A DNA stretch of 64,000 nt from Phycisphaerales bacterium (lineage in GTDB: Bacteria; Planctomycetota; Phycisphaerae; Phycisphaerales; SM1A02): contig SIAD01000005.1 in assembly GCA_009691915.1 (NCBI GenBank), positions 62,001 through 126,000 on the forward strand, in the 5' to 3' direction. Each line of letters starts with the position of its first letter. The first letter of the stretch is position 1. Below the pieces are notes generated by a model, which was given only the letters and a program-made list of their open reading frames with translations, did no database searches and was not told where the DNA came from. Below, one piece after another: positions 13,435-60,730 of the stretch. A program made the translations under genes and the position numbers.

Positions 13435-13443
13435 GGGGTTCCT

Positions 13444-14449: not shown

Positions 14450-14450
14450 G

Positions 14451-14837: not shown

Positions 14838-14865
14838 GTTCTGGGTCTCCGTGATCTTTACTGGC

Positions 14866-15401: not shown

Positions 15402-15425
15402 GGTTCGTTCCTCATGCTCCAGTCG

Positions 15426-15845: not shown

Positions 15846-15871
15846 GGATGGCTCCTGCGGAAGTCCTCAGT

Positions 15872-16579: not shown

Positions 16580-16588
16580 GGGTGCGCC

Positions 16589-16924: not shown

Positions 16925-16941
16925 GGGACTCCTCGGTCAGG

Positions 16942-17241
16942 TCAGCTGCCGGCGACCTTCTCGCCGCCTGCGATGCCTTCCTTCTTGTTCGTGTGCCCGC
17001 GGAACATGCGGGTCATGGAGAACTCGCCCAGCTTGTGCCCAACCATGTCCTCGGTGACGAAGACATCGAGGAACGACTTGCCGTTGTGGACCTGGAATGT
17101 GACGCCCACGAACTCCGGGACGATCGTGCAGGCACGCCGCCAGGTCTTGATGGGGGCTCGGCGGCCGCTCGCCTGAAGCGCCTCGACCTTGCGGAAGAGC
17201 TTCTCGTCGACCGCTGGACCTTTCTTGAGTGATCGTGACAT
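16942..17241 (-). CDS. rpsS: 30S ribosomal protein S19
   Basis: 99 aa. [15 protein letters not shown] and [27 protein letters not shown] are typical. S19 forms a head complex with S13. Located between rplB and rplV as in the S10 operon. Confidence 0.97.
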
Positions 17242-17265
17242 GGGTGGGTTCCTCGTGTAGTTGGT

Positions 17266-18120
17266 TCAGACCTTCAGCTGGCCATAGCGGCGGCTGAACC
17301 GGCGCCTCAGAATCCGCTCATCGCTTGACTTGCCGTGCGAACGAGTGCGGCCGCCCTTGGACGGGGTGTTGCTAGCGTTCGACGGAATCTGTCCGCCCTT
17401 TGATCGCCCCTCACCTCCGCCGTGGGGATGCTGGTGATGGCTCATCGCCATACCGCGCGTGCGCGGTCGACGACCCAGCCATCGTGCGCGCCCGGCCTTG
17501 CCAAGCTTCACGAGGGCATGGTCGGCATTGCCGACAGGGCCGATGGTCGCGCGACACTCGATCGAGACCTGGCGGATTTCTCCTGACGGCATCACGATGG
17601 TGGCGAAGCGCCCTTCCTTGTTGGTCAGTCGCGCGGCCATACCGGCGGAACGAACGAGTTTGGCACCGCACCCCGGAACCAGCTCGACTGAATTCAGTTC
17701 GAGTCCGGTGGGAATGTGCTTCAGCGGCATGCAATTTCCGACCTCAGGATCGATGTGCTTCGACGAACTCATCACGGTGGTCCCGACCTTGAGCCCCTTG
17801 GGCGCGAGGATGTAGCGGAGGTCGCCATCCGGAAATTTCAGAAGAGCGATATGGCAAGTGCGGTTGGGGTCGTACTCGATCCCCACAACCATCGCGGCGA
17901 CATCATCCTTGGTTCGGCGCCAGTCGATCATGCGATAGCGCCGTTTGTGCCCGCCTCCCTGCTGGATGACCGTGAGCTTTCCCTGACAATTGCGACCGCC
18001 GGTCTTGTGGAGCGGACGAAGCAAACTCTTCTCGGGCTGGCGCTTTGTGACCTCAACATGGAGGTTCACCGACGCGTTGCGACGGCTGTTGGTTACGGGC
18101 TTGTATTTTCGGATGGCCAT
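17266..18120 (-). CDS. rplB: 50S ribosomal protein L2
   Basis: 284 aa, standard length. RKYKPVTNSRRNASVNLH opens it; KGGRTRSHGKSSDERILRRR closes it, and the GMAMSHHQHPHGGGEGRSKGG loop contains the conserved His of the peptidyl-transferase region (family VAMNPVDHPHGGGEG, here with SHHQHPHGG). L2 is needed for subunit association. GGGAG lies upstream of the ATG. Confidence 0.97.
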   Translation of the reverse strand: MAIRKYKPVTNSRRNASVNLHVEVTKRQPEKSLLRPLHKTGGRNCQGKLTVIQQGGGHKRRYRMIDWRRTKDDVAAMVVGIEYDPNRTCHIALLKFPDGDLRYILAPKGLKVGTTVMSSSKHIDPEVGNCMPLKHIPTGLELNSVELVPGCGAKLVRSAGMAARLTNKEGRFATIVMPSGEIRQVSIECRATIGPVGNADHALVKLGKAGRARWLGRRPRTRGMAMSHHQHPHGGGEGRSKGGQIPSNASNTPSKGGRTRSHGKSSDERILRRRFSRRYGQLKV

Positions 18121-18138
18121 GGTGGGTGCTCCCGCGAA

Positions 18139-18417
18139 TCAGAAGAGTTCGATCCGGTCTTCGGCGTGGACACGGACGACGGCACGCTTTGTGGTAGCGC
18201 CGGCGAAGGAGCCGAACTTGTTGCGCTTGGACTCCTCCTTGCGGTTGTTGACGCTGACTGCGAGAACGCGCACCTTGTAGAGCTCGATGATGGCCGCCTT
18301 GACATCGGTCTTATTGGCGCGATGGTCGATCTCAAAGGTGTAGCGATTGTGGTCGCTCGCGCCTGCATTGGCCTTCTCGGTAATGAGGGGGCGACGGATG
18401 ACTTCGGTGGCGATCAT
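18139..18417 (-). CDS. rplW: 50S ribosomal protein L23
   Basis: 92 aa. RPLITEKANAGASDHNRYTFEIDHRANKTDVKAAI is the L23 signature. L23 sits at the tunnel exit and docks trigger factor. Starts within the rplD stop (ATGA overlap). Confidence 0.96.
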   Translation of the reverse strand: MIATEVIRRPLITEKANAGASDHNRYTFEIDHRANKTDVKAAIIELYKVRVLAVSVNNRKEESKRNKFGSFAGATTKRAVVRVHAEDRIELF

Positions 18418-19070
18418 GACGCGGCCTCCGCATTCGTTGCGTAACAGGACTCGTCAAGGAACGATGTGAGCGTGGCCTTGTCGGTGACCAGGAATCGGTG
18501 GTTGAGAACCTGAAACACATTCAGCTGATCCACGCGCGTCGTTGAGGAACTCGGCAGATTGGCCGCGCTCTGGCGGGCTCCCTGGTTCTTCGCGTCAAGC
18601 ACGATGAGACAGGTGCGATCGACGCCGACCGCCTTGATGATGCCGGCAAAGGCCGCCGTGCTCGGCTGCGCGAATGTCAGGTCGCTGAAGCACTTCACCT
18701 CGCCATCGACGAGCTTCGCCAGCAACGAATTTCGGTTGGCCAGCCGACGCATCTTCTTCGGCAGCGATGACCGGAGATCCTCTCGCGTTCGCGTCTTCGC
18801 AAATGTCACACCGCCGCCTTTGCGATTGGGAACACGCGAGGCACCGGCGCGGGCGTTGCCTGTCCCCTTCTGCTTGTAGATCTTGCGGGTCGAGCCATGA
18901 ACCGAGCCGCGGCTCTTGGTCCGGGCCGATCCCTGACGCTGGTTGAGATGCACCGCGACATACGCCTGCTTCAGCAGCGCGTGGCGGACATCGCCGCCGA
19001 GCGTCTCGGGGTCGATCTTCATGGAGTCGACCTGCTTTCCATCATGAGAATAGATTGGGAGTTCAATCAT
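18414..19070 (-). CDS. rplD: 50S ribosomal protein L4
   Basis: 218 aa from ATG 19070 (MIELPIYSHDGKQVDSMKID), which has GAAGGA upstream; the frame is open for 18 further codons that do not look like L4. KSRGSVHGSTRKIYKQKGTGNARAG is the extended loop reaching the exit tunnel. In enterobacteria L4 also represses its operon; whether it does so here cannot be seen. Confidence 0.96.
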   Translation of the reverse strand: MIELPIYSHDGKQVDSMKIDPETLGGDVRHALLKQAYVAVHLNQRQGSARTKSRGSVHGSTRKIYKQKGTGNARAGASRVPNRKGGGVTFAKTRTREDLRSSLPKKMRRLANRNSLLAKLVDGEVKCFSDLTFAQPSTAAFAGIIKAVGVDRTCLIVLDAKNQGARQSAANLPSSSTTRVDQLNVFQVLNHRFLVTDKATLTSFLDESCYATNAEAAS

Positions 19071-19237
19071 TTCTGGGTCCTTCGGCGGAAGTCCGCCGCG
19101 TTCGCCTCGCCCTCTCTTCGCCAATCACTTCAGGCGTCGAGCAGGGTCTGACTTGGATTCGTACCGGGTTGTTGCGGTCGCGGGGTTCCCCGAAGGGCCT
19201 TCGCAACCAAGCATTGCGCTCGGACGGGATCGGGGGA
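19071..19237. other. 167-bp spacer between rplC and rplD
   Basis: Unusually long for this operon and without a recognisable gene. A weak inverted repeat (AAGGGCCTTCG region near 19193) is the only structure noticed. It holds the GAAGGA Shine-Dalgarno of rplD at its end. Confidence 0.5.
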
Positions 19238-19924
19238 TCACGCCTTCGCTTGGAGTCTCGCTTTCGGCTTGAAGAGGCGGATGGATGGACGCACAAACAG
19301 AATGCCGGAGTTGGCACCGGGAACGGCGCCCTTGACAATCAGAATGTTTTTCTCAAGGTCGATTGACACGACATCAAGACTGCGAGAAGTGACGCGCTCG
19401 GCGCCGGTGCGACCGGGCATCTTCTTCCCCTTCTTGATCTTCGCGCCGTGACCACGGTCGGTGCCGTGGCTACCGATCGAGCCGGGGGAGCGATGCTTGC
19501 GCTCGACTCCGTGTGAGGCGCACAGACCCTTGAAGCGGAAGGCCTTCATCGCGCCGGTGAACCCCTTGCCCTTGCTCGTCCCGATGACATCGACGAACTT
19601 GATCTTCTCGAACGAGCTGACATCAATCGTCTGACCCAGAGAAAACGCCGCGGCTGCGGCGTCGTCGGGCAATCGAATCTCGCGGTGCACGCGCTTGGGA
19701 GAGACGCCCGCCTTGGCATCGTGGCCAATGACCTGCATGGTGCTCGAACGTGGCTTGACATCCTCGTAGGCGATCTGGACCGCCGCGTATCCGGCGTTCT
19801 CCGTGGTCTTGACCTGCGTCACCGCGCATGGCCCAGCAGCGATCACGGTGACGGGAATGTTGGTCCCGTCCTCCAAGAACCAGCGGGTCATCCCCACTTT
19901 GCGGCCGATGAGTGCAGTGTTCAT
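19238..19924 (-). CDS. rplC: 50S ribosomal protein L3
   Basis: 228 aa. The start (MNTALIGRKVGMTRWFLEDGTNIPVTVI) and the family signature around FKGLCASHGVERKHRSPGSIG with GAKIKKGKKMPGR are clear. L3 is one of two proteins that initiate 50S assembly. Follows rpsJ by 11 bp. Confidence 0.97.
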   Translation of the reverse strand: MNTALIGRKVGMTRWFLEDGTNIPVTVIAAGPCAVTQVKTTENAGYAAVQIAYEDVKPRSSTMQVIGHDAKAGVSPKRVHREIRLPDDAAAAAFSLGQTIDVSSFEKIKFVDVIGTSKGKGFTGAMKAFRFKGLCASHGVERKHRSPGSIGSHGTDRGHGAKIKKGKKMPGRTGAERVTSRSLDVVSIDLEKNILIVKGAVPGANSGILFVRPSIRLFKPKARLQAKA

Positions 19925-47930: not shown

Positions 47931-49142
47931 TTACTGTCCCCACTGACCTAGGAGAATCGACAGATCGGCGGCATTGACAGTCCCGTCGCCATTGATATCC
48001 GCAGAGCAACCTGACGAAGTGCAGCTGAAATTGACGGTGCCCACAAACCCACCGTTGCTGCCCACTCGCGGCATCCACACGAGGTACTGACGGCCTGCCT
48101 CCACCGGGAAGTTTACGGTCGACGAATCCCCTTCACCGCACTGGTCATTGCACACGATCGACTGTGTCGTCAGCGCGGTGCAGTAGTCCGAGTCGCAGGG
48201 GTCGATGGCGAAAACTTCAATCGCCGTGTCGACCGCTGTGAGCCCACAGTTCTTCACGACACCGGTGCCTGTGCACGCGGGAGTCCACGCATAGAAGAAC
48301 TGCCGGTTTGTCGGCCAATTCGGCGCACACGAGACACCGGGGAGCGACACCGCGGGAGCAAACGAGTAGTCGAATGGCAGGCTGTGGGGCGCGCCGTTGA
48401 CAACCACGGGAATGGCGCAGGTGCTGGCAGGCAGCGGTAAGACACCCGCCACGGGCATTTCGTAGGATCCGCCGCCCGTCCCCGAGCCTTCCCACCCGGT
48501 TTGGTGGCCAAGCATGTCGGTCGCGGATGCCTTGGAGATGCCAAATTCGCTCACGCCCTGAAAGAATTTGATAACCGATCCGTTGTCGTAGCAGTCCTCC
48601 CGGTATCCCTGGGGAAAGTCCTCGTAAGCTGAGATCGCCACGAAGTACTCGGTGTTCGGTGCCAGATAGTCGCCGAGTTTGCCGGTCGCATTTGCTAGCT
48701 GGGTTTCGCCAAGGAGTATCGGAAACGGCCGTGCCTGGGAATGCCTCCCCACGGTTGCCAGCGGCCGCGCGTAGGTGACATAGACTGGAGCGCCAGTCGC
48801 GGTGCCGCACTGCACCACGGACTTCTTGAAGAGACAGAGCCTCGCGTTCCACTGCGGCGCACCTCCCGCCACCATGTTCATGTCAAACTTGAAGGCGTAG
48901 GGGTTGCTGCCGGTCTTCAGCAGAAACATGTCGACGCGGTCTGGAGCACCGATGAGTGCCGTTCCAGAAGTCGCCCCTCGAACGCGCGTTATGGGCAATG
49001 CCGATGCCGCAGACACCGTCGCTGCGGTGGCCGCAGTCGATCCCGCGTCCGTGGCCCCTTCATCAAATTCAGGTCCGGCAAAGGCTGATACCGACAAGCC
49101 GCACACGATCAGATAGCCCGCCGCACGAATGGTGGTCAACAT
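47931..49142 (-). CDS. Exported protein with C-terminal dockerin-like motif
   Basis: 403 aa from ATG 49142 (MLTTIRAAGYLIVCGLSVSAFAG, a signal peptide); an ATG 13 codons upstream is in front of the predicted signal and less likely. The body contains many Cys and looks like an extracellular beta-rich protein of unknown function. It ends with a single EF-hand-like repeat, SADINGDGTVNAADLSIL followed by LGQWGQ, the dockerin-type tail common on planctomycete secreted proteins. The tail probably binds calcium; a partner cohesin is not seen here. It is divergent from the kinase gene. Confidence 0.85.
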   Translation of the reverse strand: MLTTIRAAGYLIVCGLSVSAFAGPEFDEGATDAGSTAATAATVSAASALPITRVRGATSGTALIGAPDRVDMFLLKTGSNPYAFKFDMNMVAGGAPQWNARLCLFKKSVVQCGTATGAPVYVTYARPLATVGRHSQARPFPILLGETQLANATGKLGDYLAPNTEYFVAISAYEDFPQGYREDCYDNGSVIKFFQGVSEFGISKASATDMLGHQTGWEGSGTGGGSYEMPVAGVLPLPASTCAIPVVVNGAPHSLPFDYSFAPAVSLPGVSCAPNWPTNRQFFYAWTPACTGTGVVKNCGLTAVDTAIEVFAIDPCDSDYCTALTTQSIVCNDQCGEGDSSTVNFPVEAGRQYLVWMPRVGSNGGFVGTVNFSCTSSGCSADINGDGTVNAADLSILLGQWGQ

Positions 49143-49167
49143 AAGGTAAGTTCTCGTTTCTACTCGT

Positions 49168-49173
49168 GTTATA
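49168..49173 (-). promoter_or_regulatory. Putative -10 element (TATAAC) of the dockerin-tailed gene
   Basis: TATAAC on the minus strand lies 25 nt before the ATG, so this gene would have a short leader, unlike its divergent neighbour. No clear Shine-Dalgarno is seen. Confidence 0.4.
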
Positions 49174-49284
49174 GCCGACAATGGCGCATTTACAAATCCC
49201 TGTCCTGAGATTTTTGTCGGAAGGGCCGCCGGAACCGAGAGGAAGCGCTCTCAGGCACTCGCGGGACGGCCCCCGTAGGCCTCC

Positions 49285-49290
49285 TAGAAT
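49285..49290 (+). promoter_or_regulatory. Putative -10 element (TAGAAT) of the kinase gene
   Basis: TAGAAT ends 7 nt before the ATG at 49298, with CGCGTGA between and no Shine-Dalgarno. Confidence 0.55.
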
Positions 49291-49297
49291 CGCGTGA

Positions 49298-51733
49298 ATG
49301 GGCCACCCCGACGACATGGATCGAACGATTCCGCTTGATGCGCAGACCGGAGCCACCCCTGCTTCCGGCCCGGAAGTGACCGCTGACTCCGGAATGCATC
49401 TGTCGGCATCGGCTCCCCATGACACGGCAATGGACTCAAAGTCGTGGGTTGGCGAAGCGATCGGAGGCGCCAAGGCTCCGGGAACCCCGATCACAGGCGG
49501 CCGTTACAAGATCCTGTCGCAACTCGGCGAGGGCGGCTTCGGAATCGTCTACCTCGCCGAGCAGACCGAACCGGTTCGCCGCAAAGTCGCCCTGAAGGTG
49601 CTCAAGCTCGCCTTTGCGTCCCCGTCCATGCTGGCGCGATTCGAGGCGGAGCAGCAGGCGCTGGCGATGATGGATCATCCCGGCCTCGCGAAGGTGTTCG
49701 ACGCGGGAACGACTCCTGACGGGCAGCCTTACTTCGCGATGGAGTACGCGCCGGGAGAGCCGCTGACCACATTCTGCGACAAGCGCAACCTTTCCATTCG
49801 GGCGCGGCTCACACTCCTAGCGCAGATCTGCGACGCAGTCCACCACGCACACATGAAGGCGGTTGTGCACCGCGACCTCAAGCCCGGCAACATTCTGGTT
49901 GGCGAGACCGACGAGGGAATGCGCCCCAAGGTGATCGACTTCGGAATTGCGAAGGCCATCTCCGGTCAAGGCACAGACCGACCGACGGAGACCCAATTCG
50001 GCCAGTTTGTCGGCACTCCTGTCTACATGAGCCCCGAGCAATCTGAAGGGGGCACGATCGACATTGACATTCGCAGCGACATTTACTCGCTTGGTGTGAT
50101 CCTCTACGAGTTACTCATTGGCCAGACTCCGATCGCCTCGGAAACGCTGCGGAAGTCCGGACTCGCCCGGCTGCACAAGACGATCCTTGAGACTGAAGCG
50201 GACCGCCCGAGCGTCAAACTGGCGCGTCTGCCGCCCGCCGAACGCGCCGCAGTGGCTGCGACGCGGAGCACCGACGAGAAAACACTCGCGAGGCAGTTGC
50301 GACGCGATCTCGACTGGATCGACATGAAGTGCCTGGAGAAAGACCGGGTACGCCGATACGAAAGCGCTAGCGCGCTCGCCGCAGAGCTCCGCCGCTATCT
50401 CGGTGGCGAGGCGGTTCTTGCGGGTCCGCCTGGTGCCGGATACCGCATTGAGAAGTTCGTCCGACGACACCGGATCGCCGTCGGCGCGGGAGCTGTGGCC
50501 GTCGTCGGGCTTGTGGCCTTTGCCATCGCCATGACCATGCTGTGGAGCTCCGCAGTACTCCAGCAGAACCGCGCGCAGAAGACTCTCGATGTACTGCTCT
50601 CGTCGCTCAAGTCCTCCGATGTCTCCGGTGAGCAGGCTGCGGCGACAGTCACCATCAAGGACTATCTCTATGAGGTCGAGCGCCAGACCGAGTCGAAGTT
50701 GGCCGACCAGCCGGACATTGCCAGTGACCTGCGCGGGACGATCGGGTGGGTGATGACCTCGCTCACCGACTACGACGGCGCGATACGCAATCTGCAGCCG
50801 GTCGTCGCGTACCGACGGGAGCAAGCCGCCAGCGGAGGCTCCGACGAAAAGGCCGCACTGGCGATGGCCCTGTACGAGTTTGGACGCGCGCTCTACTTCA
50901 AGGACAGGAACGCGGAAGCGCGAGATGCCTATGCCGAGTCACTCGCCCTGCGCGTGGAATGCCTCCACCCCGACGACCTCTTGATCCCGAGAACGATGCT
51001 CCACCTCGCCGCGATCTACGCAAACCTCGGCGACTTGGAGACCAGCTCGAAGCACGCCGATGAGGCGATCCGGCGGTTTCGCGCAGGCGGACCCGACGCC
51101 GGAGAAGTCCTCGCGCGTGCGCTCTATTCCCACGCTGGGACCCTCGCCAAGGCCCAGCGATACGACGAGGCACGCAAGCTGGTTGACGAGTTCATCGAAG
51201 TGACCATGCGAAGTCGCCCTGCGGAGGGCGCCAACAACTGGATGATAGGGCGCGGATTGGGTCTCCTAGCGGAGATTGAGCTTGGGAAGGGGCGCCCGGA
51301 TCTTGCGGTCGTTCACCAGCGACGGGCTGTCGATCTCATCGTCCCCCGCTACGGGCAGCACCACCCGACGGTGACTGGTGCGCGGATGTTGCTGGCCAGA
51401 CTCCTCTGCGAAGTGGCGACCGGATCGCGGGCACCGGAGAGTTCCGCCACGATCAGCGATGCGGTGCTTCTCGACGAAGCACTCACCATCGCACGCGCAT
51501 CCGTCGACGGACAACTGCGCAACGGTGGCTTCCCCATTCGACTGGCCGACTCCCTCGATCTCATCTCGCGCCTGACGGACCTCAAGGGGGATCGCATCGA
51601 GGCCATCGCGACCGTTGAACAGATGCTCACGGTGCTGAAGGAGAAGGCCCCGCAGGCGGCGCAGGAGATCCGGTCGGCACAAGATCGACTCAAGCTCCTT
51701 CGGCAGCCGCAAACGGCCCCGACCCCCCCCTAG
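49298..51733 (+). CDS. Membrane Ser/Thr protein kinase with TPR-like repeats
   Basis: 811 aa. The kinase domain (about 70-375) has the P-loop LGEGGFGIVYLAE, Lys100 (VALKVLK), HRDLKPGN with catalytic Asp193, IDFGIAKA and FVGTPVYMSPEQSEGG. A single membrane helix at about 394-416 (IAVGAGAVAVVGLVAFAIAM) is followed by some 380 residues of TPR-like helical pairs (for example AMALYEFGRALYFKDRNAEARDAYAESLALR) predicted outside the cytoplasm. This architecture is frequent in planctomycetes. Its targets are unknown. The TAG stop is part of the next gene's -10 element. Confidence 0.93.
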   Translation: MGHPDDMDRTIPLDAQTGATPASGPEVTADSGMHLSASAPHDTAMDSKSWVGEAIGGAKAPGTPITGGRYKILSQLGEGGFGIVYLAEQTEPVRRKVALKVLKLAFASPSMLARFEAEQQALAMMDHPGLAKVFDAGTTPDGQPYFAMEYAPGEPLTTFCDKRNLSIRARLTLLAQICDAVHHAHMKAVVHRDLKPGNILVGETDEGMRPKVIDFGIAKAISGQGTDRPTETQFGQFVGTPVYMSPEQSEGGTIDIDIRSDIYSLGVILYELLIGQTPIASETLRKSGLARLHKTILETEADRPSVKLARLPPAERAAVAATRSTDEKTLARQLRRDLDWIDMKCLEKDRVRRYESASALAAELRRYLGGEAVLAGPPGAGYRIEKFVRRHRIAVGAGAVAVVGLVAFAIAMTMLWSSAVLQQNRAQKTLDVLLSSLKSSDVSGEQAAATVTIKDYLYEVERQTESKLADQPDIASDLRGTIGWVMTSLTDYDGAIRNLQPVVAYRREQAASGGSDEKAALAMALYEFGRALYFKDRNAEARDAYAESLALRVECLHPDDLLIPRTMLHLAAIYANLGDLETSSKHADEAIRRFRAGGPDAGEVLARALYSHAGTLAKAQRYDEARKLVDEFIEVTMRSRPAEGANNWMIGRGLGLLAEIELGKGRPDLAVVHQRRAVDLIVPRYGQHHPTVTGARMLLARLLCEVATGSRAPESSATISDAVLLDEALTIARASVDGQLRNGGFPIRLADSLDLISRLTDLKGDRIEAIATVEQMLTVLKEKAPQAAQEIRSAQDRLKLLRQPQTAPTPP

Positions 51734-51736
51734 GAT
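51731..51736 (+). promoter_or_regulatory. Putative -10 element (TAGGAT) overlapping the kinase stop
   Basis: TAGGAT begins with the kinase stop codon TAG and ends 6 nt before the GTG at 51743. Confidence 0.5.
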
Positions 51737-51742
51737 CGCGGC

Positions 51743-52171
51743 GTGTTCAACCTGTTCACGCTCTCGATGGTCGCGTTCCTCGCCGGCGTACTCGCGGCGC
51801 GCCACTTCGGCCTGCGGGCACTCCGCTGCCTTGGTGAGCAGGATCGCGCCGCGCTTGTGGAGATTGCCGCCAGAAGTTCGTTGTTCAATCTGGTCGTACC
51901 CCTCGCGGTGGGGCTCGTGTACTTGGTCGTCGTCATGAATTTTCGCGAGCTCACAGTCACCGCGACAGTCGCCGCGCTCGCGCTTCTCCTCGTGCAGGCC
52001 ATCATCGGAAGCGTCAAGGCGGGTCGGGCCTATAAGGCCCACGGGATGCCCGATGCCTTCATGTGGAACTTCCGAGTCGCGAGATCCTGTCGACTCGTCG
52101 GGTTCGCGTGCCTCGTGGTCGGCGTGGTGGCGTGGCTTGCCACGAACATGACGCGGCACAGCGACAGTTGA
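51743..52171 (+). CDS. Small membrane protein of unknown function
   Basis: 142 aa from GTG 51743, chosen because it lies 6 nt after TAGGAT. Four hydrophobic segments are visible: 4-20, 48-66 (FNLVVPLAVGLVYLVVVMNF), 72-90 (TVAALALLLVQAIIGSV) and 117-135. No family recognised. Located 10 bp after the kinase gene and 30 bp before the Tat-exported oxidoreductase gene. Confidence 0.75.
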   Translation: MFNLFTLSMVAFLAGVLAARHFGLRALRCLGEQDRAALVEIAARSSLFNLVVPLAVGLVYLVVVMNFRELTVTATVAALALLLVQAIIGSVKAGRAYKAHGMPDAFMWNFRVARSCRLVGFACLVVGVVAWLATNMTRHSDS

Positions 52172-52195
52172 ATCGAGTCAATTCGGGGCTACGAT
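52168..52195 (+). promoter_or_regulatory. Putative promoter of the FAD oxidoreductase gene
   Basis: A -35-like TTGAAT (52168-52173), a 16-bp spacer and a -10-like TACGAT (52190-52195) that ends 6 nt before the ATG at 52202. This is one of few elements here with both boxes. Confidence 0.55.
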
Positions 52196-52201
52196 CCGGC
52201 C

Positions 52202-53902
52202 ATGCCAGGCCAGTTTCCACGGCGGCAGTTTCTGGGCGCCGGACTCGCAGCGATCTCGGCGTGCCTGATCGCGCCGCGCCTGGCCCGGGGGTGGGATCCC
52301 CCGCGCTGGCTGCGACCCAAGCCGGCGTGGATTCCGGTTCCTTCAACGGCTCCGATTCTGCGAATTCCACTGGCGGGGCCGACCATCCAAATCGACGGTC
52401 TGCCGTTCCATCCGTCGTGGCTTGGCGATTCGTTCGCCGGTGGGGGGATCCCGTTTCACACGCCAGAGGCGCCTCCACGATGGGCCGCGCTCGACGAGCA
52501 TGTCGAGCTCGCCGTCATCGGCGGCGGACTCTCCGGCCTGGCGTGCGCACATGCGATGAAGGAGAAGGACTGGGTCCTCTTCGACCTTCGTGATCGATTC
52601 GGCGGGAATGCCATGGGTGAGTCATGGAACCGAATCCCCTACTCGCTCGGAAGCGCGTACTTCATGGTGCCCGATGAGGGCAGCGACCTCGATCGGCTCT
52701 ATGCATCCCTTCGCGTGTACGACTCGGCCCGCGTCGACAAGGGCGGCGGATTCCGGTTCGAGTACGGAGATCGACTGATCGATGACCTCTGCCAGGGCTG
52801 CTCGCCCTCGGAGCGTGAAGCGCTCGAGCGGTACCGCAGCGCAGTTCTCCACTACGCCAATGACGAGTATCCGGAGTTGCCGTGGACCGACCGCGCCACT
52901 CGGGAGCTTGCACGATCGCTCGACGCTGCGACATTTCACGACGCGGTTGCCGCGGCGTGTGAAACTCCCATTCCCCCACTGCTGGCGAAGGCGCTTCAGG
53001 CGTACTGCTACTCGAGTTTCGGCGTCGGTTGGGACGAGCTCTCGGCTGCCGCAGGCTGGAACTTCATCGCCGCGGAGGAGTACGGGCGCATCGTCCTTCC
53101 TGGCGGAAACGCCGGTCTTGCGACGCTCTTCTGGAACGACCTCGCCACGGTCCCGTCTCGCCCCGACGGAGGACCGCGCCTGCGCGCGGGCTGCATCGCG
53201 ACAAGCGTGCGACTCGACAAGAACGGCGTGGCGATCGCGTGGCGCGGCCGCGATGGCGAAGCGCGCACTCTGGGAGCACGCAATGTTGTGTTCGCAGGGA
53301 GCAAGCACCTGCTCCCCCACATCGTCCCCGACCTTGCGGCGACCGATCCTGTCAAGTACGAGGCCACCCAGCGGGTCCGCACCGTTGCGTACATCGTCGC
53401 CAATGTCCTGCTCTCTCGGCCAGTCCACGAGGAGTTTTATGACCTCTTCACGATCCACGACGACGCATTCCCCATGCGCGACGAGGAGTTCGAGGCGGAC
53501 CGTAGGATCACCGATTGTCTCGACGGATCGTTCGCCATGGTTTCGCCCCACCCCGACGGGGATGTCCTCACGCTCTACTGGCCCCTTCCCTGGCACACGG
53601 CGAGGTTCACGATCATCTATGACGAGTCGCTTGCAACCTACGCCGCACTCGCCGCGCCGCAACTCAGGCGGATGCTCGCGCTCTTTGGTCTTGCCGACTC
53701 GGATGTGACAGCGATCCGGATGGCCCGATGGGGGCATGCGATGCCGTGGGCTCCGCCGGGGACATACTCAGATGATCTCTGCGAGAAGCTCCGCGCACCA
53801 CTAGGCGATCGCCTCTGGTTCGCCAATCAGGACAACTGGCTCCTGCCGGCGGTTGAGACATGTCTCACCGAAGCTGCGTGGGTCGCCAAGCAACTGAAGT
53901 AG
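52202..53902 (+). CDS. Tat-exported FAD-dependent amine-oxidase-like protein
   Basis: 566 aa. The N-terminus carries a twin-arginine motif (PRRQFLGAGLAAISACLIA), so it is exported folded, with its cofactor. Residues about 100-130 form the FAD-binding Rossmann motif ELAVIGGGLSGLACAHAM followed by the acidic FDLRDRFGGNA. The C-terminus includes GDRLWFANQDNWLLPAVETCLTEAAW, resembling the FAD-closing segment of flavin amine oxidases and phytoene-desaturase relatives. Substrate unknown. Confidence 0.85.
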   Translation: MPGQFPRRQFLGAGLAAISACLIAPRLARGWDPPRWLRPKPAWIPVPSTAPILRIPLAGPTIQIDGLPFHPSWLGDSFAGGGIPFHTPEAPPRWAALDEHVELAVIGGGLSGLACAHAMKEKDWVLFDLRDRFGGNAMGESWNRIPYSLGSAYFMVPDEGSDLDRLYASLRVYDSARVDKGGGFRFEYGDRLIDDLCQGCSPSEREALERYRSAVLHYANDEYPELPWTDRATRELARSLDAATFHDAVAAACETPIPPLLAKALQAYCYSSFGVGWDELSAAAGWNFIAAEEYGRIVLPGGNAGLATLFWNDLATVPSRPDGGPRLRAGCIATSVRLDKNGVAIAWRGRDGEARTLGARNVVFAGSKHLLPHIVPDLAATDPVKYEATQRVRTVAYIVANVLLSRPVHEEFYDLFTIHDDAFPMRDEEFEADRRITDCLDGSFAMVSPHPDGDVLTLYWPLPWHTARFTIIYDESLATYAALAAPQLRRMLALFGLADSDVTAIRMARWGHAMPWAPPGTYSDDLCEKLRAPLGDRLWFANQDNWLLPAVETCLTEAAWVAKQLK

Positions 53903-53912
53903 GCAGGCACAC

Positions 53913-53918
53913 TAGGAT
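53913..53918 (+). promoter_or_regulatory. Putative -10 element (TAGGAT) of the DUF1648-like gene
   Basis: TAGGAT ends 6 nt before the ATG at 53925. Confidence 0.5.
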
Positions 53919-53924
53919 TCTCCG

Positions 53925-54464
53925 ATGATCCGGATCGGCGGAGTCGCCATGCTTGTCGTCGGCATCGCAGCGATGTGGACGATCGCCGGGACGCTGTACC
54001 CAACGCTTCCGCCGCAGATCCCGCTTCATTTCGATGGGTCAGGCTCGCCCGACCGTTGGGGTCCGCCGAACTTCTGGAACTGGTTTCTTCTGCCATCCAT
54101 CGGCACCGTGGTCCCGCTCTTCCTGACGGGAATTGCGGCGGTCATCCCTTGGCTGCTCCGAAACTACCCAGGGCTCGTCAGCATTCCAAGACGGGTGCAG
54201 TTTCTGGCTCTTCCTCCCGATGGACAGCGGCGCGCGCTCACTGCCCTTGCGGGGATGCTCCTGTGGATCTCGACCGTCCTTGTGTGGATGTTCGCTGGGA
54301 TGATCTACGCCACCGCGCTCGTCGCCCGTGGCACCTGGAGCGGGATGCCGTTGTGGGTGGCGCTCATCCCGGTTGGTGCCATCCTGGCAATTGCACTCTT
54401 TGGAAACTTCCTCGTCAGTCGAAGAATCCTCGTTGAGAGCGTGATCGCCTCGCAGAGAGCATGA
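53925..54464 (+). CDS. DUF1648-like membrane protein
   Basis: 179 aa with four hydrophobic segments. LYPTLPPQIPLHFDGSGSPDRWGPPNF after the first helix is the typical motif of the DUF1648 domain, which also forms the N-terminal part of the immunity protein SdpI. The SdpI C-terminal helices are not evident. Biochemical role unknown. Stands between an oxidoreductase and a permease gene, each with its own -10-like element. Confidence 0.78.
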   Translation: MIRIGGVAMLVVGIAAMWTIAGTLYPTLPPQIPLHFDGSGSPDRWGPPNFWNWFLLPSIGTVVPLFLTGIAAVIPWLLRNYPGLVSIPRRVQFLALPPDGQRRALTALAGMLLWISTVLVWMFAGMIYATALVARGTWSGMPLWVALIPVGAILAIALFGNFLVSRRILVESVIASQRA

Positions 54465-54490
54465 TCCACTCGGGCTCGCTAGAACGCCAG

Positions 54491-54496
54491 TAGCCT
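54491..54496 (+). promoter_or_regulatory. Putative -10 element (TAGCCT) of the permease gene
   Basis: TAGCCT ends 6 nt before the TTG at 54503 and is the reason for choosing that start. Confidence 0.45.
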
Positions 54497-54502
54497 TGGG
54501 TA

Positions 54503-56107
54503 TTGGCATCGATAGGGCCATCGCTGCGACGGGACATCGGCCGCTGGGGGCTCGTCGCTTTGGGGATCTCCGGTGTCGTCGGCTCGGGATGGCTCTACGC
54601 GCCACTCGAGACGGCCAAGCACGCGGGACCGGCGGCGCTCATTGCGTGGATTGTGGGCGGTGCGCTGATGCTCATCATGGGGTTCTGCCTAGCTGAACTC
54701 GCGTGCGCCTATCCGCTCTCGGGTTCAGGGGCGCAGGTTGCGGCCGCGACCCACGGACGAGGGATGTCCCTCGTGAACATGTGGCTTCTGTATTTCTCCT
54801 ATGTGACGACCCCCTCGATTGAAGCCACCTCGATCGTCACCTACAGCGCCACCTACCTCCCGTGGCTCACCGTGGGGAAGGAGGCCAACCTGAGTCCTTC
54901 CGGCCAGGTCGTGACATTCCTCCTCGTCGGTGTGTTCACCGTGCTGAACTTCTTTGGAGTCCGTTGGTTCATCCGCATGAACAGCTGGATCACCTGGTGG
55001 AAGATCGCCATTCCGGCCGGGATCGCGGTCATCATCCTGACGACACGGTTCGAATCCACCAACATCGTTGATTCGCCCGGCGGATTCGCCCCCATGGGAG
55101 CGCAAGGGATCATCGCCGCACTCTCCTCCGGCGGGATTGTCTTCACCCTGTGCGGCTTCCGGATCATCGCGGATCTGGCGGCGGAGGCTCGCAATCCGGC
55201 CAAGGACATCCCCTTCGCTTTCCTCGCATCGACCGCGTTTGCGGTCGTGCTGTATCTCGTCGTGCAGGTCGCGTTTCTCGGGGCACTTGCTCCGGCCGAC
55301 TTTGCCGATGGCTGGAGCAACCTCAAGCTGCCCCAGGCCAACGCGCCATTCATTTCGATTCTCTTGATCGTCGGGCTGCCGGCCATGGCCAAACTGCTCT
55401 ACGCGGATGCGATTCTCTCGCCTGGAGGGTCGTGCCTCGCATACATCGCCAGCACCGGCCGCGTGGGATACGCCGCCGCCCAGCAGAACTTCGCCCCGAA
55501 GATATTTCTGGCGCTCAACCGGAGCGGCGTGCCGGTGATGTCACTACTTGTCTGCTGGGCCATCAGTGGCGTCATCACTTTCGCGTATCCGAGGTGGGAT
55601 CAGCTCGCGAACCTCAATGCCGCGGCGTACTTCCTGAGCGTTGTTACCGTTCCGGTGAGTGTTGCCGTCCTGCGGCGCGTCGATCCGCATGGCCCGCGCC
55701 CCTTCCGCGTCGCTGGAGGCACCGCGATGTGCGCCCTCGCATTCACCACGAATCTGCTGATCGTCTACTGGAGCGGGATCGGCTCGTTCGTCCCGCTTCT
55801 GGCCGCGCTTGCCATCATCGTTGCCGTCGCGGTCACGCTGGGCCGGATCCGCAAGCAAGCGCCGATTGCGCACAGTTGGCGGCCGCTCCTCTGGCTCCTT
55901 CCGATGGCGGCACTTCTGTGCGTGGTGGGCTGGTTCGGCAACAAGGACTTCGGTGGCGTAGGCGCACTCCCGGAACTCTGGGACACGGGGATCGTCGCGC
56001 TGGGCGCGCTCGCGCTCTTCTACATGGCGGTGAAGATGGCGAGCCCCGCCGACGAAGTCCATCGGCGTCTCGGCGAGCTGCGCTCACTCTGCAGGCGACG
56101 CGAGTGA
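54503..56107 (+). CDS. APC-family amino acid permease
   Basis: 534 aa from TTG 54503, which follows TAGCCT by 6 nt. About twelve hydrophobic segments. The first helix region (LVALGISGVVGSGWLYAPLETAK) has the GxxG substrate-binding pattern of the amino acid-polyamine-organocation superfamily, and ALSSGGIVFTLCGFRIIADLAAEARNPAKDIP is the typical TM6 and following loop. It probably imports or exchanges an amino acid or amine at the inner membrane; the substrate cannot be read. Confidence 0.9.
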   Translation: MASIGPSLRRDIGRWGLVALGISGVVGSGWLYAPLETAKHAGPAALIAWIVGGALMLIMGFCLAELACAYPLSGSGAQVAAATHGRGMSLVNMWLLYFSYVTTPSIEATSIVTYSATYLPWLTVGKEANLSPSGQVVTFLLVGVFTVLNFFGVRWFIRMNSWITWWKIAIPAGIAVIILTTRFESTNIVDSPGGFAPMGAQGIIAALSSGGIVFTLCGFRIIADLAAEARNPAKDIPFAFLASTAFAVVLYLVVQVAFLGALAPADFADGWSNLKLPQANAPFISILLIVGLPAMAKLLYADAILSPGGSCLAYIASTGRVGYAAAQQNFAPKIFLALNRSGVPVMSLLVCWAISGVITFAYPRWDQLANLNAAAYFLSVVTVPVSVAVLRRVDPHGPRPFRVAGGTAMCALAFTTNLLIVYWSGIGSFVPLLAALAIIVAVAVTLGRIRKQAPIAHSWRPLLWLLPMAALLCVVGWFGNKDFGGVGALPELWDTGIVALGALALFYMAVKMASPADEVHRRLGELRSLCRRRE

Positions 56108-56122
56108 CTGCGACGAGGTGAG

Positions 56123-56128
56123 TATCGT
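56123..56128 (+). promoter_or_regulatory. Putative -10 element (TATCGT) of the transglutaminase-esterase gene
   Basis: TATCGT ends 6 nt before the ATG at 56135. Confidence 0.5.
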
Positions 56129-56134
56129 GGGCTC

Positions 56135-58432
56135 ATGACAGTCACCGCAATCCGCATCGCGGCAATCGTCGCCTCGATTCTTGCCTCCACCACTGCGGAC
56201 GGCGGGCGCGATCTCGAGGCATCGCTTGATGCCGCGGGATCCAACCGCGCCCAGATTGAGCTAGCCATCAAGGAGTGTCCCGCGACGGAACACCCAGGGA
56301 TGCGTTGGCTCGTTGAGCACATGCCGGTTGAAGATCTCAAGACGCTCAACGCGAGATTCCTGCTGGACAATTGCACTCAGGCCTACACCGCCTGGCGCGC
56401 GGCCCCGTGGCACGATCAGGTCTCCGAGGGGCTCTTCTTCGATGCCATTCTTCCCTACGCCTGCATCGACGAGCCGCGCGATGAGTGGCGAACTCTCCTG
56501 CGCGAGAGATGCCTGAAGATCATCGACGGCGCACCCACGCCTGGCGCCGCGGCAGTGAAGCTCAATACGCAACTCTTTCCCCTTGTCGGCGTCAAGTACT
56601 CGACTCAGCGCAAGCGCGCCGATCAGACCCCGCGCGAGTCAATCGAGTCGGGACTCGCCTCATGCACCGGCCTGTCGATTCTGCTGATCGATGCCTGCCG
56701 CAGTGTGGGTATTCCGGCACGATTTGCCGGCATTCCGATGTGGACCGACGGGAGCGGGAATCACTCATGGGTAGAGATCTGGGATGGATCGTGGCACTTC
56801 ACGGGGGCGGCCGAGCCAAGTGGCGACGACCTAGACCGAGCCTGGTTCTCCGAGCGCGCCGCGACTGCACGCCGCGACGAGCCGATGCACGCGATCTACG
56901 CCGTGACTTGGAACGACTCGCCGCTGACCTTTCCACCGGCTTGGCGCGAGAGGGGCGATCCCGAGGACGGCCGAGTACGGGCAGTCAATGTCACGGAGCG
57001 CTATACCTCGAAGACCGTACAGGTCCCGCTAGGGATGTCGCCCCTGCGCATGCGCGTCATAACGCGAGCGGGGCGTGTGGCGCGGCCGGTCGCCATAGCG
57101 GACTCAACGGGTGCGGTCCTCTTCGAGGGGACATCGCGCGATGAGGGCTTTGACTCCAATGACCACCTGACGGCGATCCTCCCGATGGGGAGCGAAGTAA
57201 CCATCACAACGCCTGGTGCCATACCGACGAAGGTGATGATCGCCGCTGAAAACTCGCTGGTCGACCTCACCGTGCAGGGATCGTCCGAGGCCGTCGAGGC
57301 ACTAGGAAAGTTCCTGCGCTCCCACGCTCCGAGGGAAGTCCAGGGGCAGCCGTTCGCCACGGTGGCCTTGACACGCGAAGATGCGGCCGCGGCGGCCGAA
57401 CTTCTCTGGAAGCGCCTGATGAGCCTCGAGCGGGCGACGCGGGCGAAGGAACTCGAGTCCGGCGTGATCGAAGTGAGTGGTGTGAAGATGCCGATCTGGT
57501 TTGCGACCTACGGGAAGGAGCCGGACGGTGGCCACTCCCTCTTCATCTCGATGCATGGCGGCGGCGGTGCTCCGAAGGCCGTCAATGACCAGCAGTGGAA
57601 AAACCAGCAGAAGTTGTACGAGCCCGCGGAGGGGATCTATGTCGCCCCGCGTGCTCCCACCGACACCTGGAACCTCTGGCACCAGGGGCACATCGACCCG
57701 CTGTTTGACCGTCTCATCGAAGACATGGTGATTGTGCACGGGGTCAACCCAGATCGCGTCTACCTGATGGGTTACAGCGCCGGCGGCGATGGCGTCTATC
57801 AACTAGCGCCCCGGATGGCAGACAGATTCGCCGCAGTCGCCATGATGGCCGGGCACCCCAACGAGACGAGGCCCGACGGCCTGCGCAACCTCCCCTTTGC
57901 TCTTCATATAGGCGCAAACGATGCCCCATTTGATCGCAGCAAAGTTGCTCAGCACTGGAAGACGCTGCTCGCCGAACTCGCCGCCAAGGATCCAGGCGGA
58001 TACCCCCATGTCGTCGAGATCCACGACGGGAAGGCCCACTGGATGGACCGAGAAGACGCCGTTGCGATCCCTTGGATGGCGACCCACTCGCGCGCTGGCC
58101 GCCCCACTCGCATCGTCTGGCTTCAGGACGATGTCACACACGATCATTTCTATTGGCTTGCGGTCGGTACGCCGAAGGAGCGAACGCGAGTTGAGGTCTC
58201 GCGCGACGGTCAGAGGTTCACCGTCGATGCGCCTGCAGAAGTCGCAGGGATTCGATTGCTGCTGGACGACTCCATGTGCGACCTCGACAAGCCGGTCGAG
58301 ATTCGGCGTGGTTCGGCAGTTTTCAGCGGGACTCCGGTGCGGACGATTTCCGTCATCGAAAGGTCACTTGCCGAGCGCGCCGACCCCAAGTCCATTTCTT
58401 GCGCAGAATTGGCGGTTCCTGATGCTGATTGA
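56135..58432 (+). CDS. Exported transglutaminase-like/alpha-beta-hydrolase fusion
   Basis: 765 aa with a signal peptide (MTVTAIRIAAIVASILASTTA). A transglutaminase-like domain spans about 130-260: Cys177 in SGLASCTGLSILLIDACRSVG and His210 in GNHSWVEIWDGSWH. A linker of about 190 residues leads to an alpha/beta hydrolase domain with the oxyanion-loop region FISMHGGGGAP and Ser548 in YLMGYSAGGDGVYQL; His in IHDGKAHWMD is a candidate base. The second half recalls PHB-depolymerase-like esterases. Two hydrolases on one exported chain suggests degradation of a peptide-ester composite, which is inference. Confidence 0.85.
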   Translation: MTVTAIRIAAIVASILASTTADGGRDLEASLDAAGSNRAQIELAIKECPATEHPGMRWLVEHMPVEDLKTLNARFLLDNCTQAYTAWRAAPWHDQVSEGLFFDAILPYACIDEPRDEWRTLLRERCLKIIDGAPTPGAAAVKLNTQLFPLVGVKYSTQRKRADQTPRESIESGLASCTGLSILLIDACRSVGIPARFAGIPMWTDGSGNHSWVEIWDGSWHFTGAAEPSGDDLDRAWFSERAATARRDEPMHAIYAVTWNDSPLTFPPAWRERGDPEDGRVRAVNVTERYTSKTVQVPLGMSPLRMRVITRAGRVARPVAIADSTGAVLFEGTSRDEGFDSNDHLTAILPMGSEVTITTPGAIPTKVMIAAENSLVDLTVQGSSEAVEALGKFLRSHAPREVQGQPFATVALTREDAAAAAELLWKRLMSLERATRAKELESGVIEVSGVKMPIWFATYGKEPDGGHSLFISMHGGGGAPKAVNDQQWKNQQKLYEPAEGIYVAPRAPTDTWNLWHQGHIDPLFDRLIEDMVIVHGVNPDRVYLMGYSAGGDGVYQLAPRMADRFAAVAMMAGHPNETRPDGLRNLPFALHIGANDAPFDRSKVAQHWKTLLAELAAKDPGGYPHVVEIHDGKAHWMDREDAVAIPWMATHSRAGRPTRIVWLQDDVTHDHFYWLAVGTPKERTRVEVSRDGQRFTVDAPAEVAGIRLLLDDSMCDLDKPVEIRRGSAVFSGTPVRTISVIERSLAERADPKSISCAELAVPDAD

Positions 58433-58483
58433 GGCCGATAATGACAGTTGGTGTGAATCGGAACTAAATCCGATGGGGTTATT

Positions 58484-58502
58484 TTGACACAATCGCTTGA
58501 CA
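58484..58502 (+). promoter_or_regulatory. Duplicated TTGACA boxes upstream of the PEP-CTERM-like gene
   Basis: Two TTGACA hexamers start at 58484 and 58497, 13 bp apart, in a less GC-rich stretch. They match the -35 consensus perfectly, but no convincing -10 box is found 17 bp downstream (AGATTA/GATTAA only). Confidence 0.4.
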
Positions 58503-58578
58503 CTCAAGCAGAACGGTGCAGATTAACGGTTAGGAGTTCTCGGGAGCAAGGGTCGCGAGTCGGCGGTACCGACTGTGT

Positions 58579-58584
58579 TAGGTT
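58579..58584 (+). promoter_or_regulatory. Putative -10 element (TAGGTT) of the PEP-CTERM-like gene
   Basis: TAGGTT lies 27 nt before the ATG at 58612. The predicted leader carries a GGAGA Shine-Dalgarno at 58600-58604, so this gene is conventional rather than leaderless. Confidence 0.45.
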
Positions 58585-58611
58585 CGTGTCCCTTCCCTTG
58601 GAGACTCAATC

Positions 58612-59154
58612 ATGAAATCAGTTGTTCTTGGCGCGTCCCTCGCAGCCGTCGTTGCTTCGGCCGCTGTTGCCGATGTGACCTACTCGTTCGACCATGCGAC
58701 CTGGACCGGATTTAACTTCAGTGAGGCCTTCGCAGCTGGGTCGCTCGCCGGCACGCTCACTGGCGCGTCGATCAATGTGACGCTCGATGCCAGCGTGTCC
58801 TGGACCTACGCGGACGACCTCACGATCTATGTCGCCGGCACCCCGCTCGCAACGGGCGGCGCGCTCCAGTGCGGCGGATACTCCAGCTTGAGCGCTGGCC
58901 AGCGGTACTACTGGCCCAACGGCGGCTTTTCGGCCCCCGGCACAACCTCGATTGGAACCGTGAACTTTGCCACGGGCATCGACCTGACCGGCAGCGCAAT
59001 GAGCGTGTGGGTTGGCAACGGCTACGGAGCCCAAGGAACCTCCGGCACCTGGACTGGCTCGGTCACGCTGCACGGCGTGAACGCGGTGCCTGCCCCTGGC
59101 GCGATCGCGCTCTTGGGAGTCGCCGGACTTGTCTCTCGCCGTCGTCGCGCCTGA
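58612..59154 (+). CDS. Secreted protein with PEP-CTERM-like sorting tail
   Basis: 180 aa. Signal peptide MKSVVLGASLAAVVASAAVA. The mature part is rich in Gly, Ser, Thr and aromatic residues and poor in charge, probably an all-beta secreted domain. The end VPAPGAIALLGVAGL followed by SRRRRA is a VPxPG-type, PEP-CTERM-like signal: motif, hydrophobic helix and Arg cluster. Such tails are processed by exosortase/archaeosortase-like enzymes, none of which is encoded here. A clear Shine-Dalgarno and a strong terminator flank it, suggesting high independent expression. Confidence 0.85.
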   Translation: MKSVVLGASLAAVVASAAVADVTYSFDHATWTGFNFSEAFAAGSLAGTLTGASINVTLDASVSWTYADDLTIYVAGTPLATGGALQCGGYSSLSAGQRYYWPNGGFSAPGTTSIGTVNFATGIDLTGSAMSVWVGNGYGAQGTSGTWTGSVTLHGVNAVPAPGAIALLGVAGLVSRRRRA

Positions 59155-59187
59155 TCGTAGGCCGCGTCGGTTACACAGTCTTCAAGG

Positions 59188-59220
59188 AGCGGACGCCTTA
59201 TTGGCGTCCGCTTTTTTTTT
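59188..59220 (+). terminator. Rho-independent terminator of the PEP-CTERM-like gene
   Basis: A perfect 10-bp stem AGCGGACGCC / GGCGTCCGCT with a 5-nt loop, followed by nine T residues (59212-59220). The strongest intrinsic terminator in the window. Confidence 0.95.
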
Positions 59221-59272
59221 GTTCACAGCCTTTGCAACGACGGGTGTGGAAACAGGAGTGCCCGAATCGGCG

Positions 59273-60730
59273 CTATGCGCGCCGTGCGTCATGCGCTGCG
59301 ACCAGGTTCCGCCACGCAGACTCTTCGAACGCCCACTCATAGTTTCTCCAGCGACCGATCGACCCCGTGTTGATCGGCTTCCGAACCTGCTCATGGCTCA
59401 GCGTCAACACCATGCGCGTGTTTCGCTCGGGTTCAAGCGTCGCCTCGTCCATCGGTAGCCCTAGCCGGGCGAAGCAGCGCTGTGAGTGGCCACGCGGGTC
59501 CTCAACGAAGTTCTCGTAGACCATCGACTCGTGCGACAGGGACAGTTGTTCGAGAGCCATCGGAAGGATCGACCGATGCGCCGCTATCGCGCGACGGATC
59601 GACTCGATTGACCCGGTCCACCCCATCGACTGCGGGTGAAAATTTCCCAGAAGCATGCTGATGGCGTTGTCTCTGGGATCCCGGTCGATCGCGATGTACA
59701 CCGCCCCCGGCAGCACCAGGGCGACGAGCGGTAACCACCGCCAGACCTTGAGCGTCTTGTCGAATGTCCACGACGCGCCGTCACGGCAGAGGAACCGCGA
59801 GCCCTTCAGATAGGCCGCCTGCCACTGCGTCAACTGGGCCGAAGACACCGATGCGAGTTCTCCGGGCCACCGGCCCGACGCGACCGCCTCATCACCGAAG
59901 GCGCGAACTCCCTGATACTCGCCTATTCCACTGATCTGGGGATGCCGATCAAACATCTGCTCGATGAGAGTCGTGCCACTGCGCGGGAGGGCGACGACGA
60001 GCGCGATCCCAGTGACTTCGGGGGCGCGCCGCGGGCCGAGCCATCCTGGGTTCGCAAGGAGCCGCCGCTGCTCCTCAACCTGCTGCTCAAGCGCGCCGAT
60101 GTCGTACCGTGTTCCGGTGGACGCGTGGGTCTCTGCGGCCAGGTCGTACGCCTCGCGGTACTTCCCGTGAGCATCGAGCGTGCGGACCCCCTCGAAACCA
60201 GCAATCCGTCGGGCGTGGTTGGGGGCCGCACTCCTGAGCAGCACCTTGAAGTGTTCGACCGCAGCCATCGCGTCGCGCTGGCCAAGTCGACGACCGACAA
60301 ATATCTGTGCGCGGGCGTCCTGCTGCCAAGCCCCACCCGCTGCGATGAACTGGTCCAGCTCGTTCTGCCGGTTCGCCCGCGACAGGATGTCGGCCATCAC
60401 GATCGCGGCCTCTGTCCCCACCTGCCCTGTCGCTCCCTGCAGCGGCTTCAGTCTCGCCAGCGCGGCCTCGGTTCGTCCGATCCGGTGATCGATGATCGCC
60501 TGCTGCAGGAGAATTGCCGGCTCCTTCGGCAGCAGTCGCGCCGCCGTCGCGATCTCCTCGTGAGCCACCGAGAGGTGTCCGAGCGCAAACGCCGCGCGCG
60601 CACTCAAGTACCACCAGTTCCCGTTTCGCGGCTGCCGCTCCCGAAGGCCGCGCGCCAACTCCTCGGCGGCACCGTACTGCTGCCGCGCCATGAGCGCATC
60701 GAACTTTGCGGTGGAAGACTCGGTAGCCAT
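59273..60730 (-). CDS. TPR-sulfotransferase
   Basis: 485 aa. Residues 1-200 are TPR-like helical pairs (QYGAAEELARGLRERQPRNGNWWYLSARAAFALGH). The C-terminal half is a sulfotransferase fold with the 5'-phosphosulfate-binding loop VVALPRSGTTLIEQMFDRHP and a 3'-phosphate loop around AIDRDPRDNAISMLLGNF. The family transfers sulfate from PAPS to protein tyrosine or carbohydrate; the acceptor cannot be told. No signal peptide. Separated by 33 bp from the upstream cyclase-fold lipoprotein gene, with its own TAGACT element. Confidence 0.88.
   Translation of the reverse strand: MATESSTAKFDALMARQQYGAAEELARGLRERQPRNGNWWYLSARAAFALGHLSVAHEEIATAARLLPKEPAILLQQAIIDHRIGRTEAALARLKPLQGATGQVGTEAAIVMADILSRANRQNELDQFIAAGGAWQQDARAQIFVGRRLGQRDAMAAVEHFKVLLRSAAPNHARRIAGFEGVRTLDAHGKYREAYDLAAETHASTGTRYDIGALEQQVEEQRRLLANPGWLGPRRAPEVTGIALVVALPRSGTTLIEQMFDRHPQISGIGEYQGVRAFGDEAVASGRWPGELASVSSAQLTQWQAAYLKGSRFLCRDGASWTFDKTLKVWRWLPLVALVLPGAVYIAIDRDPRDNAISMLLGNFHPQSMGWTGSIESIRRAIAAHRSILPMALEQLSLSHESMVYENFVEDPRGHSQRCFARLGLPMDEATLEPERNTRMVLTLSHEQVRKPINTGSIGRWRNYEWAFEESAWRNLVAAHDARRA

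Follow-up and report, generated by a model that had tools for sequence, protein, structure and literature searches.

Promoter-like -10 boxes at each start codon in a row of closely packed genes of a freshwater Phycisphaerales bacterium

Should a row of closely packed genes on one strand be taken for an operon when each of its start codons is preceded by what looks like a promoter of its own? The question is raised by a 64,000-nucleotide stretch of DNA (the window) from contig SIAD01000005.1 of a Phycisphaerales bacterium, which belongs to a 2.27 Mb assembly of 34 contigs (GCA_009691915.1). Between positions 49298 and 58432 of the window, six forward-strand genes follow one another, and before each start lies a hexamer of the form TANNNT, the pattern of a sigma-70-type -10 element. 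The explanation that we consider probable is that each gene would have a leaderless promoter box and that the transcripts would be nested. Drawn from the positions of the boxes, their enrichment and conservation, and the lack of a -35 signal and of internal terminators, this explanation predicts promoter activity at each box, leaderless 5' ends and nested messages.

The row of boxed genes

The row begins with a Ser/Thr protein kinase with TPR repeats (49298-51733; Pfam PF00069 and TPR), followed by a small hydrophobic protein with a GTG start (51743-52171) that was taken from the list of open reading frames and had no match in Pfam and NCBIfam searches, an NAD/FAD-type oxidoreductase (52202-53902, ATG start; PF13450), a DUF1648 protein (53925-54464, ATG start; PF07853), an amino acid permease with a TTG start (54503-56107; PF13520), and a transglutaminase-like or esterase protein (56135-58432, ATG start; PF01841, with NCBIfam esterase matches below cut-off). 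The genes after the kinase are named here by their start positions. Gene calls were made by a simple caller written for this analysis and are not the published annotation; alignment with related proteins supports the start codons of the row, the odd TTG at 54503 among them. In named records, the relatives of gene 52202 are mostly from uncultured planctomycetes, several of them titled Phycisphaerales or Phycisphaerae.

A sequence-only reading of this locus had described five tightly packed genes after the kinase, on the same strand and without overlaps, each with TANNNT ending 6 nucleotides (nt) before its start, and on all of these points it was right. The successive gaps from the kinase to 56135 are 9, 30, 22, 38 and 27 base pairs (bp), no genes overlap at the five junctions, and the boxes end exactly 6 nt before all five starts: TAGGAT (51731-51736) before 51743, TACGAT (52190-52195) before 52202, a second TAGGAT (53913-53918) before 53925, TAGCCT (54491-54496) before 54503, and TATCGT (56123-56128) before 56135, all on the + strand. 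The number of genes needs amendment, as the kinase is also boxed (TAGAAT, 49285-49290, + strand, 7 nt before its start), which makes the series a row of six. The same hexamer is scarce in the surrounding DNA: on the + strand of 49000-59500, TANNNT occurs 14 times (0.13% of positions), the start boxes accounting for six of these, while the six gene bodies hold only two others on this strand, at 53503 and 55645.

The genome was sampled for similar starts (860 kb, 678 genes, any plausible start per gene being allowed). TANNNT was found exactly 6 nt before 92 of the 678 genes, compared with 9.6 (standard deviation 3.1) per control offset. Offsets of 7, 8, 9 and 10 nt are also raised (37, 24, 32 and 15 genes, respectively), which is the pattern expected from short leaders. 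The middle three bases of the box vary among the 92 genes, and no -35 signal was found among them; a classical -35/-10 promoter, with no instance found, was rejected. The longest run of consecutive boxed genes in the sample consists of the five from this row, and there are five other runs, each of two genes. For a run of at least five, permutation within gap classes gave P = 0.0022, which is a guide at most, as the locus was picked for its run.

Boxes are found before 46 of the 200 genes that follow an opposite-strand neighbour and before 29 of 159 in same-strand gaps of 9-49 bp (24 of 154 when the five genes of this row are not counted), and before 3 of 112 overlapping genes and none of the 42 with gaps of 0-8 bp. 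Shine-Dalgarno (SD) sequences are present in 48% of the overlapping genes. This distribution indicates that two arrangements coexist in the genome: coupled rows that are often SD-led, and rows whose short spacers each hold a promoter-like box. A useful contrast within the window is provided by positions 12810-19924 of the - strand, where close short genes, mostly called with SD sequences and without -10 boxes, are arranged in ordinary operon style. A separate feature of the sampled starts is a C at position -2, present before 59% of all called starts, 54% of unboxed starts and 40% of boxed starts, for which no explanation was found.

The shortest gap of the row, 9 bp, makes the stop codon coincide with bases 1-3 of the box, so that the TAG stop of the kinase (51731-51733) is also the first half of the -10 box of 51743. 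Among same-strand gaps of 9 bp in the genome sample, TAG is the preceding stop for six of nine genes, of which four carry a complete TAGNNT box, the junction of the kinase with 51743 being one of the four. All four boxed genes at this gap use TAG, a codon that makes up 156 of 681 stops (23%) overall. The same overlap of stop and box is present in the relative G004, and at the junction of 51743 with 56135 in three other relatives (G005, G007 and G018) a TAA stop doubles as the -10 box. Box and spacer together measure 12 nt, which keeps a shared stop in the reading frame of the start that follows. In two genomes (L119 1863-4604 in G009, and L118 7833-10574 in G011), a single open frame of 914 amino acids takes in the homologues of both 51743 and 56135, as would be expected from loss of a shared stop, an event that would join the two genes and at the same time abolish the promoter. 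In G015 (L032 11696-14539), one open frame also holds homologues of 53925 and 56135, but its 53925 part appears to be frame-shifted at the end, and either gene decay or a mistake in assembly may be the cause.

Conservation of the boxes in relatives

Homologues of the row and of the next gene downstream (58612) were compared in 72 rows, with starts set by protein alignment and with matches dropped if they began after residue 60 or had less than 45 nt upstream; L081 was left out, no candidate start lying close to the position given by the alignment. TANNNT is 6 nt from the start in 25 of these rows, 7 nt in nine and 8 nt in ten, whereas each control offset of 12-40 nt has it in 1.6 rows on average. 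A box at 6-7 nt was found for 9 of 12 homologues of 51743, 12 of 22 of 52202, 3 of 5 of 53925, the single homologue of 54503, and 6 of 14 of 56135, giving 31 of 54 for the five genes together, or 29 of 51 by hand count after removal of doubles (L058 is the same as L120, in the G018 region, and L035 the same as L088, in the G005 region). For the kinase the count is 3 of 8, and for 58612 it is 0 of 10.

Retention of boxes was followed on a larger scale in a 1.26 Mb sample of the congener G005, excluding matches below 38% identity or 50% coverage; a start could be read in 325 of 364 orthologues. Boxes were kept at 6-7 nt in 33 of 44 orthologues of genes boxed at 6 nt and in 11 of 17 orthologues of genes boxed at 7 nt, versus 15 of 264 orthologues of unboxed genes (Fisher P = 2e-23 for 33/44 versus 15/264).

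Gene order varies around the boxes. In G004 the kinase is followed by 51743, 52202, 53925 and 56135, each of the five with a box at 6-7 nt, and the permease is absent; the closest relative of the permease (69-79% identity) is located elsewhere in G005 with its own TAGGCT-N6-ATG, although it matches in two frames and the start region alone was used. In G005 and G007, 56135 comes directly after 51743, and in G007 the order 53925-52202 occurs. As compared across these genomes, the box at this locus stays with its gene where the neighbours differ.

Several observations weigh against a leaderless promoter at each gene. The box is missing in 10 of 22 homologues of 52202, 8 of 14 of 56135 and 3 of 12 of 51743; the homologues of 52202 with 41-45% identity are among those without it. 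In G018, there is no box before 51743, which overlaps the kinase gene. A leaderless start at TTG, as proposed for 54503, is unusual. Adjacency is kept in 15 of 21 tight boxed pairs versus 57 of 64 other tight pairs (P = 0.08), a nearly equal conservation that would fit operons too. A broken-up order at tight boxed pairs, considered as a proof of independence, was only weakly supported by these counts.

Depletion of the motif and its taxonomic spread

In 774 kb of coding DNA, TANNNT occurs 560 times, whereas shuffling of synonymous codons predicts 2686 (ratio 0.21, z = -42); for its complement the observed and expected counts are 550 and 2434. Related patterns are less depleted, with ratios to shuffles of 0.80 for TANNNC, 0.77 for TANNNG, 0.60 for TANNNA, and 0.71 for both TANNT and TANNNNT. 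By fifth base, depletion of TANNNT is deepest with A (0.08) and weakest with G (0.35), and it is greatest for the hexamers nearest TATAAT. It relaxes to 0.36 in the last tenth of genes, which may be the site where the downstream promoter sits.

The same method gave ratios of 0.17 for the congener G005 (contig C1), 0.44 for G028, 0.45 for G112, 0.47 for G063, and 0.30 in 91 kb of G198, which is of the same phylum but of another family, so that the purge reaches beyond the order. The controls were small samples of 50-100 kb each, with ratios of 0.62 for Deinococcus radiodurans plasmid MP1 (100 kb), 0.64 for Sinorhizobium meliloti pSymB and 0.83 for Escherichia coli K-12. The simplest reading would be that a bare -10 box starts transcription in this organism and is hence selected out of genes. 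Under-representation of -10 hexamers in the coding DNA of many bacteria, and selection of this kind, have been described (PMC1939733); that work was based on a set of 185 E. coli hexamers and on a different null model, so that its magnitudes are not directly comparable with those given here.

Genome searches for a box at a fixed distance from a start codon showed a strong signal in the family, a weaker one in the order and a mixed one in the phylum. A reversed-pattern control was rejected for these searches because it overstates the enrichment, TACGAT being common in frame, and a frame-matched pattern with a spacer of 9 nt (N9) in place of 6 (N6) was used instead. The totals, which took in 48 of 121 rows from the order and 30 of 75 rows from the phylum outside the order, are 831 for N6 versus 385 for N9 in 36 same-family rows (own genome included), 258 versus 159 in the next 12 rows of the order, and 859 versus 720 in the 30 rows of the phylum outside the order. 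Gene-based profiles of 100 kb each have a peak at 5-7 nt in G028, a weak one in G063 and G198, and none that is clear in G112.

These results bear on whether the boxes might have arisen by chance or be something else, with TAGGAT serving through its AGGA as an SD-like sequence or TACGAT representing the in-frame codons TAC GAT. The earlier statement that SD sequences are lacking is correct, with the qualification that the two TAGGAT boxes place AGGA at an SD-like distance before 51743 and 53925; TACGAT-N9-ATG is also frequent. Chance was rejected, however, by the comparison of 92 of 678 genes with 9.6 per control offset and by the retention in orthologues, and the codon reading likewise faces a peak at 6 nt that is far above the control offsets, exceeds the frame-matched N9 control and is present in orthologues. 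The SD reading of TAGGAT was rejected because the three other boxes, TACGAT, TAGCCT and TATCGT, hold no SD sequence and the middle bases of the box vary genome-wide. The 16S rRNA gene was not found in the assembly, and the anti-SD sequence is therefore not readable. Altogether, we regard an origin of the boxes by chance, or as SD sequences or codons, as highly improbable.

Transcription of the row and comparison with known systems

That there is a promoter at each start is, on the evidence of position and conservation, very likely. The proposed mechanism is that each of the six genes, from the kinase to 56135, would have a sigma-70-type -10 element, TANNNT, that works with little or no -35 element in this lineage. 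A box that ends 6-7 nt upstream of the start codon would lead RNA polymerase to begin on that codon or about one base before it, and the resulting leaderless mRNA would be translated without an SD sequence. Promoter and spacer would thus be the same 9-38 bp. The spacing of box and transcription start in Mycobacterium tuberculosis, applied to a box at -12 to -7, predicts the first base of the start codon as the transcription start site.

The row is followed after 179 bp by a gene of another kind (58612-59154, + strand; a weak PEP-CTERM match, below cut-off), which contrasts with the row in being SD-led and having no -10 box at its start. Beyond it is an intrinsic terminator with a 14-bp stem (59184-59216, + strand; fold -24.7 kcal/mol, z = -6.5); no other in 49000-59500 is strong, and none that is convincing was found between the genes of the row. 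An Rfam search of the window found two tRNAs and nothing else. Since internal terminators are absent, messages begun upstream would be expected to run through the later genes, giving nested transcripts that share an end near 59216. The later genes have no SD sequence on these long messages, and would probably be translated mainly from their own leaderless mRNA.

In the sequence-only reading, the genes were individually transcribed, leaderless units. A promoter and leaderless start per gene is well supported by position, genome-wide enrichment, conservation and the purge of the motif from coding DNA; strict single-gene transcription is supported only in part, as the sole strong terminator follows 58612. 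Strictly separate transcripts would demand that each leaderless message end before or in the next gene, for example by Rho or by processing. The box at every start would suit such an arrangement, as would the retention of boxes by genes whose neighbours differ, but the single strong intrinsic terminator argues against it, although Rho-dependent ends may exist, and we consider it unlikely. Nested rather than single-gene transcripts are the likelier outcome.

The row might also be one ordinary operon, with a single transcript from the kinase promoter, internal boxes that are weak or silent, and later genes translated by coupling or re-initiation. Such an operon would be consistent with the shared strand, the gaps of 9-38 bp, the common terminator with none inside the row, and the partly kept gene order in relatives. 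It would not account for the lack of SD sequences and overlaps at the five junctions, in a genome where nearly half of overlapping genes have an SD sequence, nor for a conserved promoter-like box at a precise distance from every start rather than a single promoter at the front. The permease, moreover, has been gained or lost within the row, and the Pfam assignments suggest no evident functional link among the genes. An ordinary operon is accordingly a poor candidate, and an individual promoter-like box per gene with nested transcripts remains the preferred explanation.

Leaderless genes with TANNNT boxes are already known in Deinococcus and mycobacteria. In Deinococcus-Thermus, a -10 motif TANNNT lies about 6-7 bp before open reading frames, mostly with no -35 element, and such leaderless genes are mixed with SD-led ones; in D. 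radiodurans this arrangement has been shown by experiment to drive leaderless genes, and a reintroduced -10 motif restored expression (PMC12340547). The arrangement described here is alike in the distance of TANNNT from the start, in the missing -35 signal and in the presence of SD-led genes beside the boxed ones, the promoter activity having been shown there and being predicted from sequence here. It differs in belonging to another phylum, in its tandem rows, which the available portion of PMC12340547 does not describe, and in the strength of the purge, TANNNT being only weakly depleted in the D. radiodurans plasmid. In M. tuberculosis, of the Actinobacteria, TANNNT is located 7-12 bp before the transcription start, no -35 consensus is present and many genes are leaderless (PMC3898074); the leaderless class rests there on mapped transcription start sites, whereas here it is predicted from sequence.

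TANNNT about 12 bp upstream of the start has been presented as a signature of leaderless genes in high-GC genomes, and the same work argues that, of the genes in an operon, none but the operon-proximal one can be leaderless (PMC3160421). Consecutive close genes that each bear the signature, as in this row, depart from that picture as far as the accessible text of PMC3160421 gives it; the string "planctomycet" was not found in that text. Planctomycetes have been named, from one genome, among the groups in which SD sequences are few and there is a leaderless and/or S1 signal (PMC5397173), and short intergenic spacers have been described in a genome study of freshwater Planctomycetes, in whose text as available the words promoter and leaderless do not occur (PMC6461901). 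No transcription-start study of Planctomycetes or Phycisphaerales was found among the papers listed by a literature search, subscription papers being mostly outside its reach. By our own judgement, what is new here is the tandem row, the stop codon shared with the -10 box, and the strength of the purge.

A wider reading is, on balance and narrowly, favoured: a bare TANNNT would suffice to start transcription in the genus of freshwater Phycisphaerales studied here, and would have been purged about fivefold from coding DNA on both strands and kept mainly at wanted starts. Genes would then form portable cassettes spaced 9-40 bp from one another, some with a stop codon shared with the next promoter, and operon prediction based on distance would misread nested leaderless transcripts as operons. 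The combination of a motif purge with a positional peak would offer a test, applicable to sequence only, of the minimal DNA at which RNA polymerase starts. If the reading is true, close spacing on the same strand does not imply co-transcription in this uncultured freshwater lineage, and each gene would bring its own start-codon promoter, such that insertion, movement or loss of a gene would leave its neighbours unbroken.
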